Virus record (IMG/VR): IMGVR_UViG_3300017917_002704
Span: 1-58,915 of that record
Strand: one strand, 5' to 3'
DNA length: 58,915 bases
Source of the DNA: a virus
A model generated the notes under the pieces. That model was given only the letters and a program-made list of their open reading frames with translations. It did no database searches and was not told the origin of the DNA. The position numbers and the translations under genes are program-made. Below are positions 19,028 through 23,206 of this stretch, one piece after another. Numbering within the stretch: the stretch's first letter is position 1; the number at the start of each line of letters is the position of its first letter.

Positions 19028-20022
19028 TAAACGATAATTTGCCGGATCAAATAAATGGTGTGGTCACAACTTACAAAAACATTGAGGCATGTGCGGCTCG
19101 TGACAACTATAACATTGTGGTGCTTCATCCCGGGTGGTTCCGCTACATTGATTGCCCTGGCTACAACGAAGTCAAGATTACCTATCCCCGGCAGGTGGGC
19201 AAGAAGATTGAGGAGATCAATCCGGATTATATCCATATCGCCACAGAGGGTCCTCTTGGTTTGTGGGCTAGAAAGTATCTTTCATTACGTTCTTATCGCT
19301 ATAATACCGCTTATCATACTAAGTTTCCAGAAGGATTTAAAAAACTTTTTGGTATTCCTGAATCTTTAACTTGGAGATTTGTTCGTTGGTTTCATAAACA
19401 TTCTGGTAAGGTATTGACCACCACAGAAACAATGGTAAAGGAGTTACGCAATCATGGATTTGATGGAACTATTATACCATGGACTAGAGGTGTTGACAGG
19501 GATATTTTTTATCCTGAACCTAATTTTACTAAGTCTGGCGTGCTCTTGTGCGTTAGTAGAGTCTCAAAAGAAAAATCATTAGAAAACTTTTTTACATTAG
19601 ATTATCCAGGCTACCGTAAGATAATGGTAGGAGATGGACCTATGTTAGAAACATATAAAAAAGAATATCCCGATGTAGAATTTGTGGGTGCCAAACGAGG
19701 TAAAGAATTAGGTGACTATTATCGTATGGCTGATGTGTTTGTATTTCCTAGTCGTTGGGAAACATTCGGGCTTGTTATGATTGAGGCCATGGCCTGCGGT
19801 ACACCAGTTGCAGCTTATAATTGTCAAGGGCCAGTGGACGTTATTGATCAGGGAATTACAGGATTCGTGGTTTCCGAAAAAGAAAGTTTATCTGTAGCCG
19901 TTGAAAAATGTTTAAAACTTGACAGAAAAGTCGTTTTAAACGGTAGTCAAAGGTGGTCCTGGGAATCTGCATGGCAAATATTCAAAGAAAATTTAGTGCA
20001 GAAAAATGGTAACAATTCATAA
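19006..20022 (+). CDS. Glycosyltransferase family 4-type
   Basis: 338 residues, GTG start preceded by AGAAGG. GT-B fold features: N-terminal LIINDNLPDQINGVVTTYKN (donor/acceptor domain), then VSKEKSLENF, the Gly-rich VGDGPMLETYKKEYP, and the family signature WETFGLVMIEAMACGTPVAA with the E-x7-E pair. Similar to mannosyl/glucosyltransferases that build glycolipids and often lie beside LpxH-like phosphoesterases in bacteria. Probably modifies host envelope glycolipid to block superinfection or alter the surface; this is inference from gene pairing. Confidence 0.85.
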   Translation: MSKTILIINDNLPDQINGVVTTYKNIEACAARDNYNIVVLHPGWFRYIDCPGYNEVKITYPRQVGKKIEEINPDYIHIATEGPLGLWARKYLSLRSYRYNTAYHTKFPEGFKKLFGIPESLTWRFVRWFHKHSGKVLTTTETMVKELRNHGFDGTIIPWTRGVDRDIFYPEPNFTKSGVLLCVSRVSKEKSLENFFTLDYPGYRKIMVGDGPMLETYKKEYPDVEFVGAKRGKELGDYYRMADVFVFPSRWETFGLVMIEAMACGTPVAAYNCQGPVDVIDQGITGFVVSEKESLSVAVEKCLKLDRKVVLNGSQRWSWESAWQIFKENLVQKNGNNS

Positions 20023-20027
20023 AATAC

Positions 20028-20056
20028 TTGACAATTTGCGCGTATACCTATATAAT
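20028..20056 (+). promoter_or_regulatory. Full-consensus sigma70 promoter for tmRNA
   Basis: TTGACA at 20028-20033, 17-bp spacer, TATAAT at 20051-20056, matching the consensus at all 12 positions. It lies six bases after the glycosyltransferase stop, and the first stable RNA element follows at once, as expected for a highly transcribed stable RNA. Confidence 0.9.
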
Positions 20057-20062
20057 AATGGA

Positions 20063-20400
20063 TATGATCGTATGAAGTAAATCAAAACGTATTCTGGACG
20101 CGGCTTCGATGCCGCCAGGTCCACCATAAACATACTAGAATCTCTACAAAACCGAAAGGTTGGGATCAGGGATGGTACACCGGATTACTCTAGGAGGAAA
20201 CCTAAAAGTGCGAATAGACCATAGTATGTTTATGATGGGCCTGAATTGGATTCGACAGGGTAAATAGTAGAGGCATGGACGATCCGGTAGGCGATGACCG
20301 TAAATCAAGCAAATCGATAAATGCAAACGATGAAAAGTTCGCATTAGCAGCCTAATTACTGCTTAGGGTTCGGTGGGTTCCTCGTAACAGAATACCCACC
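20063..20400 (+). ncRNA. ssrA: Two-piece (circularly permuted) tmRNA
   Basis: Rescues stalled ribosomes by acting as tRNA-Ala and mRNA. The 3' acceptor piece comes first and ends with GGTCCACCA at 20126, containing a T arm GCGGC-TTCGAT-GCCGC (loop one base shorter than usual). The coding piece starts at 20237 with GGGCCTGAATTGGATTCGAC, the typical tmRNA 5' end. GGGCCTG pairs with CAGGTCC (20117-20123) over 7 bp with one G-U. The spacer 20127-20236 begins TAAACATACTA and ends with its exact complement, TAGTATGTTTA (20222-20232), so the precursor stem is extended. After the tag come helix 5 (AGCAG/CTGCT) and a hairpin (20372-20400). Order and spacer identify the permuted form. The 5' and 3' ends are approximate. 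Confidence 0.92.
20323..20355 (+). other. tmRNA tag-peptide reading frame
   Basis: Resume codon GCA at 20323-20325 followed by codons for ANDEKFALAA and TAA at 20353-20355 (all ten residues include the resume Ala). The ALAA end is the conserved ClpXP/ClpAP degron of proteobacterial tags. ANDE...FALAA is close to tags of betaproteobacteria. Confidence 0.92.
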
Positions 20401-20427
20401 ACTATGTTTAACAACAAGGAGTTTATT

Positions 20428-20961
20428 TTGAAGAAAACAATCATTGCTCTTACATTGGGTACTTTGATGGGAGTTGCTTCTGCTGGCGTTGTCAGTCTTG
20501 AAGTGGATCACGTTAAAGACGACAAGACGAAAGCAAAGAGCACAGCACAATATCTACGTGTTAACGGTAATGTTGATGGTTTGGATCTTGGCTTGCAAGC
20601 TCGGACAGCCACCTTTGATAAAGGCGGAATGGTTAATAGTCTTGAACTAACTGGTGGTAGCAAAGTTGGTCCAGTCGCTGCATTTGTTGGCGTTGGTTTT
20701 GATAATGGTTTCAATGGCGTTAAGCCTTTCCAATACGGCCTAGTTGGTGCTTCAACTGGCGCAAAGTTTGGCATTGTCAATGCTTATGCTGGTGTTAAGA
20801 CTCGCGTAAACTGGGACTCTGCTAATCCTAAACAAACAGTTCTGTTCGCTGGTGCTGCTATGCCTGTAACCAAGGGTCTTGCCCTGGAAGCTGGCGTAAG
20901 CAAGAGCTATCAGACAATCAAAGAGACCGCATTTGGTCTGGGCCTAAGTGCCAAATTTTAA
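20428..20961 (+). CDS. Porin-like outer-membrane beta-barrel protein
   Basis: 177 residues from TTG at 20428, chosen because AAGGAG (20416-20421) is six bases upstream; the in-frame ATG at 20404 precedes that site. The signal peptide KKTIIALTLGTLMGVASAG has a clear cleavage site after ASA. The mature part consists of alternating polar/hydrophobic strands (YLRVNGNVDGLDLGLQART and similar, ending FGLGLSAKF with terminal Phe), as in small bacterial outer-membrane barrels such as porin/OmpW-type proteins. A terminal Phe is the BAM insertion signal. Phage-borne; could change surface permeability or mask the receptor. Likely in a unit with tmRNA. Confidence 0.8.
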   Translation: MKKTIIALTLGTLMGVASAGVVSLEVDHVKDDKTKAKSTAQYLRVNGNVDGLDLGLQARTATFDKGGMVNSLELTGGSKVGPVAAFVGVGFDNGFNGVKPFQYGLVGASTGAKFGIVNAYAGVKTRVNWDSANPKQTVLFAGAAMPVTKGLALEAGVSKSYQTIKETAFGLGLSAKF

Positions 20962-22063: not shown

Positions 22064-22668
22064 TGGAAGAAACTACAGGGTTTACGGCCTATACATTATA
22101 CCAGGCCATTAAACTGCACTTCACTTCTGATTATGATTTCTTTAAGTACAATGGTAAAACCAATGTATCTAAAGATTCGTTCATGCATAGTAAGTCTAAA
22201 TATTCCTTTTATAAGTTGTCCAGGAAATATTCCTACGATGACCTGAAAGATTTCTATGTTGCAAACTTCATTGAACATGATGTAAATTGGGTTGGTGAAA
22301 TCACAGGACCTGAAGGTGAAGAGACATACAAAAAGTGGCAAAAAAGAATTCAGGGCTTGACATATCGATTTGAACAAGATATAATGTCGCTCATGGATTC
22401 GGTGGATGAACCGAACCAGTTGTTGGTAGTTAAGAATGGTCAGTATCCAAAATTACTGGTCTCCACTCAACAAGGTGACATTGCTATTGAAACATTGGTA
22501 ATAATGAACGATATTATGAATTTCTTTCCTATGTGGGATAAGAAGATTGATGATACCATTATTTGGCCAACGTACAAAAAACGTTGTGAGAAGTACTCAC
22601 CATTTTTAATCTACGACAAACGAAAATTTAAAACTATTTTACAAGAGAGTGTTAAAGAAAATGCTTAG
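22063..22668 (+). CDS. gp59: gp59-like replicative helicase loader
   Basis: 201 residues, T4 gp59 is 217. T4 gp59 loads the gp41 helicase onto gp32-coated forked DNA. N-terminal FTAYTLYQAIKLHFTSDYDF, KYNGKTNVS and the basic helix KYSFYKLSRKYS fit the gp59 N domain; the C-terminal ETLVIMNDIMNFFPMWDKKI and DTIIWPTYKKRCEKY fit the C domain. Position between gp33 and gp32 supports the call. The 3' end overlaps the antisense endonuclease copy 3 by 17 bases. Confidence 0.88.
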   Translation: MEETTGFTAYTLYQAIKLHFTSDYDFFKYNGKTNVSKDSFMHSKSKYSFYKLSRKYSYDDLKDFYVANFIEHDVNWVGEITGPEGEETYKKWQKRIQGLTYRFEQDIMSLMDSVDEPNQLLVVKNGQYPKLLVSTQQGDIAIETLVIMNDIMNFFPMWDKKIDDTIIWPTYKKRCEKYSPFLIYDKRKFKTILQESVKENA

Positions 22669-23206
22669 GTAACATTCCTAATTTCCATCCCGTAGGGGGA
22701 TCACTTGTCAACAATTGCTTTTCGCCATTATTGTACCACTTATAACCTTTTGTTGATGGTTTCTGATTTATTCTACCCAAAAACCATCCGTCTCCTGGAT
22801 GTTTTTCACAAAATGTATTTTCTTTTCCGTTGTTATACCATTTACTTTTTTTGTTTAATATGGAACGACGTAAAGATTGTTCTTTCTTATTTTCTTCGGA
22901 TTGTTTTTTACCAGAACCGCCATCACCACCAAAAGTTTTGTTATATCCAGAGTAAAAAGAATTATATTCTTCTATGAAAAACTTTTCCATATCTCTCGCA
23001 TGTCGGCATTCTTTTGTTTGGTAGATAACATACCATTCAAAATTATTCCAACCATATTTTTTTATGGCTCGATGAAAATGAAAACCTTTTTCGTTTTTGG
23101 CTTTGGATTTATGTGCGTACTTGCGCGTTGGCCAATTTTTGTCAATACCAATATAAACTTTACCGTTTAAGTTGTTGACACATTTATAAATTGAATATAT
23201 AATCAT
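22652..23206 (-). CDS. GIY-YIG homing endonuclease (copy 3)
   Basis: 184 residues from ATG at 23206, seven bases after GGGAG on the minus strand. GIY-YIG core IYSIYKCVNNLNGKVYIGID, WPTRKYAHKSK, KYGWNNFEWYVIY and EEYNSFYSGYNKTFGGDG. The C-terminal half has two WYNNG repeats (KWYNNGKENTF and KWYNNGEKQLL) each followed by P..GW..G, a DNA-binding repeat known from phage homing nucleases. Inserted between gp59 and the HAD gene on the opposite strand; the 3' end overlaps gp59. Different tail from copies 1 and 2 but nearly the same catalytic half. Confidence 0.9.
   Translation of the reverse strand: MIIYSIYKCVNNLNGKVYIGIDKNWPTRKYAHKSKAKNEKGFHFHRAIKKYGWNNFEWYVIYQTKECRHARDMEKFFIEEYNSFYSGYNKTFGGDGGSGKKQSEENKKEQSLRRSILNKKSKWYNNGKENTFCEKHPGDGWFLGRINQKPSTKGYKWYNNGEKQLLTSDPPTGWKLGMLPKHFL

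Follow-up and report, generated by a model that had tools for sequence, protein, structure and literature searches.

We found a gene for a permuted, two-piece tmRNA at positions 20014-20410 (+) of the window, a 58.9-kb virus record (58,915 nt). The two pieces flank an intervening sequence (IVS) whose closing stem is shared with other phages and whose content appears to be exchangeable. The explanation that best accounts for the whole locus, and that we hold with high confidence, is a phage-borne permuted tmRNA gene with a consensus promoter, probable read-through into a downstream barrel gene, a predicted role in ribosome rescue, and an IVS that acts as a swappable slot. A two-piece tmRNA in a phage is of an already known kind; the new part is the IVS slot. 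For the window itself, the novelty seems to lie in an exchangeable non-coding IVS and in the mosaic makeup of the gene. The initial annotation of this DNA overlooked that the 110-nt spacer is apparently the variable, exchangeable part.

A two-piece tmRNA gene in a T4-like phage

Two Rfam covariance models match the locus above their gathering scores: RF01850 (beta_tmRNA) at 20014-20410 (+), with 143.9 bits (E = 4.6e-44; gathering score 84), and RF04321 (tmRNA_permuted) at 20066-20355, with 135.7 bits (gathering score 47). By these scores and its sequence the locus is a permuted two-piece tmRNA gene, as had initially been proposed. Its features are listed in Table 1. The tRNA-like domain has a 7-bp acceptor stem with G3-U70, A73, CCA, a T-arm and a D-domain that lacks an anticodon arm; the pieces lie in permuted order and pair through P2; and the tag frame closes with a ClpXP-type end. 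The acceptor stem closes over 7 bp as first described, with its 3' strand one base upstream of the position then given (20117-20123), and the tag had been read correctly. The tag also reads ANDEKFALAA in three related loci (L080, L081 and L085), and the P2 counterpart in L080 is GTTG/CAAC. The fold of positions 20063-20405 is more stable than that of shuffled sequences (z = -3.4).

Table 1. Features of the tmRNA locus in the window.
Feature	Position	Strand	Basis or remark
Sigma-70 promoter TTGACA-17-TATAAT, 12/12 match	20028..20056	+	sequence; cassette relatives
Acceptor piece	20066..20126, 5' end approximate	+	RF04321/RF01850 alignment, sequence
P2 5' strand GATCG	20066-20070	+	pairs with CGATC 20280-20284
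T-arm GCGGC-TTCGAT-GCCGC, 6-nt loop	20100-20115	+	sequence
Acceptor 3' strand CAGGTCC	20116-20122	+	sequence
A73; CCA	20123; 20124-20126	+	sequence
IVS, 110 nt, non-coding, folded	20127..20236	+	sequence, fold; helix kept in relatives
IVS closing helix, 11 bp, TAAACATACTA with TAGTATGTTTA	20127-20137 with 20222-20232	+	sequence
Conserved TGAT leader	20233-20236	+	3' end of IVS
Coding piece	20237..20402, 3' end approximate	+	Rfam alignment, sequence
Acceptor 5' strand GGGCCTG	20237-20243	+	7 bp with CAGGTCC, including G3-U70
D-domain with TTCGAC	within coding piece 20237..20402	+	sequence
P2 3' strand CGATC	20280-20284	+	sequence
Tag frame GCA...TAA, ANDEKFALAA and stop TAA	20323-20355	+	sequence
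3' hairpin, 7 bp, GGTGGGT / ACCCACC	20372-20378 / 20394-20400	+	sequence
Signal peptide and 10-stranded beta-barrel outer-membrane protein gene	20428..20961	+	AlphaFold model, barrel matches

The window is a fragment of a T4-like phage, as the initial annotation had recognized: the gp59 loader, gp32 and T4-type baseplate genes are in the neighborhood. Its further suggestion, that phage tmRNAs are rare and that a permuted form in a T4-like phage is unusual, does not hold, because a 2022 paper (PMC9004378) predicted a two-piece structure for 53 of its 133 distinct phage tmRNAs, T4-like marine phages among them. The tmRNA database contains 79 phage sequences, according to PMC11915505. OM43 phage Melnitz and Pelagibacter phage Mosig likewise combine a two-piece tmRNA with a T4-like aquatic phage; the Melnitz tmRNA is described as sitting behind an early promoter, being of alpha type and linked to a glutamine riboswitch (PMC9004378), whereas the window has a beta-like type, and scanning its full length against Rfam gave the two tmRNA matches only and no glutamine riboswitch. 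With the betaproteobacterial tmRNAs of RF01850 and RF04321 the window shares the order acceptor piece–IVS–coding piece, P2, G3-U70, CCA and the ALAA tag end. It differs from them in being phage-borne, in its 6-nt T-loop, in its 110-nt IVS with an 11-bp closing stem, and in having the barrel gene directly downstream with no terminator hairpin.

A decaying or decoy copy, either inert or acting as an inhibitor (e.g., by titrating SmpB, as proposed for mycobacteriophage DS6A), would account for the 6-nt T-loop and for the failure of ARAGORN to detect the tmRNA at 20014-20410. It would also have a parallel in DS6A, which is reported to have a TLD-only tmRNA, a similar molecule being an inhibitor of tmRNA (PMC4131195 and PMC11915505). 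Nevertheless we regard this as very improbable. The tag frame is intact, has an ALAA end and is found in relatives too; the pairs of the acceptor stem, P2 and 3' hairpin are kept despite sequence differences; L080 has a nearly identical coding piece, yet its acceptor half has been swapped for another complete one; and Rhizobium tmRNAs have the same 6-nt loop.

A conserved promoter, tmRNA and barrel gene cassette

The promoter had been described as an exact match to consensus, and it is. We compared 30 distinct sequences upstream of this cassette: a 12/12 match is present in 15 and a match of at least 10/12 in 23, a level seen in 1.3% of shuffled sequences. No intrinsic terminator was found between the window tmRNA and the next gene, whose likely start is TTG at 20428 with AAGGAG at 20416-20421, although the ORF could also open at ATG 20404. 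The product, initially called a porin, is indeed an outer-membrane barrel, but it is better named a small 10-stranded beta-barrel outer-membrane protein (AlphaFold model with pLDDT 87.6). The structures closest to it are proteins from uncultured phages. A search with the barrel protein gave 51 viral loci. Among the matches listed, 69 of 85 loci with the barrel protein have a parsed tmRNA on the same strand, which lies at most 400 nt upstream in 52 of them, and most of the loci without a parsed tmRNA are truncated by a contig end. Because the linkage of tmRNA and promoter recurs, and because no terminator precedes the barrel gene, we take the promoter–tmRNA–barrel cassette to be conserved.

The consensus promoter suggests early transcription by the host RNA polymerase, and the lack of a terminator points to probable read-through from the tmRNA into the barrel gene. 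The transcript is predicted to fold into one long hairpin made of the acceptor stem, UGAU opposite the ACCA junction, and the 11-bp IVS stem. Host tRNA-processing enzymes would then cut at CCA and before G1, leaving a two-piece tmRNA and a 110-nt IVS that is discarded or released. We infer from G3-U70 that the host alanyl-tRNA synthetase would charge the molecule. Its partner would be host SmpB: no SmpB was found in 20 related phage records, several of them longer than 190 kb, while the protein was detected in 10 of the 14 genomes used as controls. We therefore take it to be supplied by the host, on which the function would depend. During infection the tmRNA would rescue ribosomes, adding its ANDEKFALAA tag to nascent chains. 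The simplest benefit may be that ribosomes stay in circulation while messages break.

Two further exact TTGACA-17-TATAAT promoters occur on the plus strand within 3.2 kb (22357-22385 and 23175-23203), near gp59 and a deoxyribonucleotidase gene. The exact promoters of the window are likely to be a set of early promoters.

The IVS has a constant stem and variable content

Scans of viral sequences with T-arm patterns, the barrel protein and an IVS element yielded at least 401 parsed tmRNA genes; the parser demands all 7 of 7 acceptor pairs, so genes may have been missed. For comparison we parsed 88 bacterial genes, mainly from alphaproteobacteria (one phylum) together with genomes picked for the 6-nt T-loop, and with no cyanobacteria. 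Because of the genomes chosen in this way, proportions in the bacterial set are not frequencies. The bacterial IVSs have a median length of 30 nt (n = 88) and never exceed 115 nt. Phage IVSs form 199 clusters among the matches listed, with a median of 81 nt and lengths up to 382 nt; 55 of these clusters are at least 100 nt long and 151 end in TGAT.

The initial annotation had pointed to an 11-bp precursor stem across the 110-nt spacer, and this stem is kept, with covariation, in 160 phage IVS clusters. We compared the first nine bases of each IVS with the last nine before TGAT. In 117 non-coding clusters, 8.36 of the 9 positions are paired on average, compared to 5.57 when partners are shuffled among phages; in 43 coding clusters the values are 8.47 and 6.37. 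Several pair types occur at each helix position across the 160 clusters, and in the window the first nine pairs are predicted to be near-certain. Since near-full pairing persists over such diverse IVSs, the IVS of these phages is a constant stem around variable content.

Some cultured phages also have two-piece tmRNAs that are not annotated: Xanthomonas phage X1 (L002, 3006-3334), phage Rb1 (L624, about 1501-1800) and Stenotrophomonas phage QDWS359 (L625, about 1501-1800), where the annotation places a hypothetical CDS across the tmRNA, on the opposite strand. Their IVSs are 107-126 nt long and apparently non-coding, with long closing stems.

Acceptor half, IVS and coding half have different histories

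Over coding positions 51-170 the window shares 93% identity with L080, and the two sequences remain nearly identical as far as the beginning of the barrel gene, whereas their acceptor pieces are only 55% identical, their IVSs 36%, and their T-loop types differ. Conversely, L080 and L060 have IVSs that are 95% identical but share only 37% over coding positions 51-170. Because identity differs part by part in this way, the acceptor half, IVS and coding half move independently of each other; recombination would exchange the three separately, with the IVS as a swappable slot. The window IVS itself has the closing helix and TGAT and is unrelated to that of L080, the nearest relative. Such exchange would show how phages retain a functional tmRNA while swapping its components.

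No hidden gene or tRNA was found inside the window IVS by ORF listing, ARAGORN or Rfam. It could instead be a functional small RNA released by processing, given that it folds better than shuffled sequences (z = -3.1) and that another non-coding IVS element, GGTCTGCGCCGTGCGNTAATGAAGATGACTAAGG...ATCACGGACATCC (in L047, L060, L080, L087, L104 and others), is strongly conserved and lies inside a tmRNA IVS in 38 of 38 contigs. We think this improbable for the window IVS: a 17-nt pattern of its core gave 4 hits, which represent one unrelated sequence outside any tmRNA and thus no relative, no Rfam family scored above cut-off in it, and the closing stem supplies much of its fold energy. An exchangeable, non-coding content of the slot remains our preferred reading.

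The proposal that the tmRNA was captured from a betaproteobacterium proved too simple. The best model is indeed of beta type, but the gene is a mosaic and its T-loop type occurs in bacteria mainly in Rhizobium-like genomes. This loop has 6 nt rather than 7, and its C-G closing pair removes the usual G53-C61. We also considered that the 6-nt loop might be a phage invention, which is ruled out by Rhizobium-type bacterial tmRNAs with the same loop; it occurs in intact-looking genes of both bacteria and phages. T-loops among the at least 401 phage genes are TTCGATT, TGCRAAT, GGCAGTR and 6-nt TTCGAN. The 88 bacterial genes, which went through the same parsing, also include 6-nt loops, TTCGATT, GGCAGTA and TGCGATT, and the phage GGCAGTR loops resemble GGCGGTA/GGCAGTA, the main types in alphaproteobacteria. 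The presence of the same loops in bacterial genes suggests that the T-loop variety is at least partly inherited and no phage novelty.

Several peripheral observations concern the detection of these genes. ARAGORN missed 132 of 401 parsed loci among the matches listed, about a third. A one-piece tmRNA with the same 6-nt T-loop is present in a viral contig (L152, 561-916). In several Rhizobium-type genomes (L541-L548) the main ssrA is accompanied, at a distance of a few hundred bases, by a second and third two-piece tmRNA copy of weaker quality. In four loci (L034, L040, L054 and L063) ARAGORN gives tags of 28-30 amino acids–for example, ANADTFDFTAMSFTGNTVANDSRFALAA–with an ordinary tag at the end; these are either very long tags or the result of a misplaced resume codon.

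Intact reading frames are nested in many phage IVSs

The IVS of the window is non-coding, but in many relatives it appears to hold a complete small protein gene whose start and stop are fitted to the borders of the slot. We defined a nested ORF as one spanning 70% or more of the IVS, with its start 5-25 nt after CCA, and obtained expectations by shuffling the IVS interior with dinucleotides kept. Among the matches listed, 22 of 28 IVS clusters of at least 150 nt contain a nested ORF (0.18 expected), as do 9 of 19 clusters of 110-150 nt (1.16 expected) and 12 of 54 of 80-110 nt (4.7 expected). There is no excess at 50-80 nt (5 of 74, 5.7 expected), so we rejected ORFs in IVSs shorter than 80 nt as genes. 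Starts are mostly 8-13 nt after CCA, and among the matches listed the stop lies inside the terminal TGAT for 18 of 31 ORFs in clusters of at least 110 nt. A Shine-Dalgarno-like (SD-like) motif in the first 14 nt of the IVS, the stretch that forms the 5' strand of the closing stem, is associated with the presence of an ORF (Fisher P = 7e-14), and G-U pairs in the stem are enriched in coding IVSs (30/86 versus 23/234 in non-coding ones, P = 7e-7).

Could the long IVSs be neutral filler, and the ORFs either frames that arose by chance or genes that inserted between the two halves to no effect? The window IVS and most IVSs shorter than 80 nt are non-coding, and IVS sequences are extremely diverse (at least 199 clusters). 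This view is nonetheless unlikely in light of the ORF excess in long IVSs, the SD association, and the substitutions between related nested ORFs, which number 123, 68 and 231 at codon positions 1, 2 and 3 (third-position bias, P = 6e-22). Moreover, some nested proteins match Pfam families (DUF2061, E = 3.7e-21; CxxCxxCC, 26.6 bits against a cut-off of 23) and have free-standing homologs in other phages. As judged from these patterns, chance frames are excluded and the nested ORFs are under purifying selection, though they may have no function coupled to the tmRNA.

The tmRNAs around these ORFs look intact: an Rfam tmRNA model scored above cut-off in 13 of 14 nested-ORF loci tested, and a recognizable tag is present in 12 of 13 checked. 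A 123-aa ORF in L360 was set aside, as Rfam did not confirm the tmRNA of that locus. An assembly artefact as the source of the nested ORFs seems unlikely because the same arrangement recurs in independent metagenomes (e.g., L375/L390/L458/L463 and L408/L441). For the 45-aa membrane protein encoded inside the L314 IVS, a free-standing homolog, 70% identical, occurs in the cultured Pelagibacter phage Mosig, where it adjoins baseplate genes; these neighbors were not found in the nested-ORF loci, so the gene appears to have changed place. In cultured phages, searches with nested proteins gave free-standing homologs only, and searches with acceptor pieces gave either no match or the phages of Xanthomonas and Stenotrophomonas, whose IVSs look non-coding, and thus no nested ORF.

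Open-access text contained no report of protein genes inside tmRNA IVSs, which is weak evidence of absence. The passages of PMC9004378 on Melnitz and Mosig do not mention ORFs in the IVS. PMC11915505 describes a permuted tmRNA whose IVS includes a tRNA-Ala and another whose IVS has a repetitive element; its passages on such inserts report no protein genes in IVSs, whereas here dozens of phage loci carry them. Group I introns with homing endonuclease genes (tmRNA_intron) similarly place a protein gene in a part of the tmRNA gene that is removed from the mature RNA. Here, however, there is no intron, the slot lies between permuted halves, and the cargo consists of DUF2061, CxxCxxCC, and small membrane or unknown proteins rather than endonucleases.

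In relatives with nested genes, we predict that translation of the nested ORF would unwind the closing stem and bring ribosomes to a halt at the acceptor, and hence should compete with tmRNA maturation. This leads to a tentative joint reading, which we put forward as possible but less than likely: phages may use the permuted-tmRNA spacer as a gene slot in which the closing helix holds the nested SD and UGAU supplies the stop, so that translation and maturation vie for the same transcript. If the IVS were excised before being translated, it would form an mRNA that ends one base past its stop and is itself prone to trans-translation, which could create an ArfA-like feedback between tmRNA supply and cargo. 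The cargo would be a structured RNA in the window and proteins elsewhere. This coupling is directly testable with cultured phages or reporters. If the slot reading is true, the gene for a stable housekeeping RNA also serves to carry protein genes, and the two-piece architecture gains a use beyond its history, its throw-away middle being free to evolve. It would also mean overlooked phage genes, in view of the tmRNAs that ARAGORN misses and the overlap of nested ORFs with an RNA gene.

Two smaller features of the nested genes were seen in individual loci. The IVSs of L309 and L364 (215-256 nt) open with a conserved 36-aa membrane ORF and then continue, and may hold two small genes. The nested proteins of L276, L413 and L455 have in common an N-terminus resembling M(M)RIKELTES / MKISELTS, which we take to be reminiscent of T4 capsid-targeting leaders, and the rest of these proteins looks unrelated.
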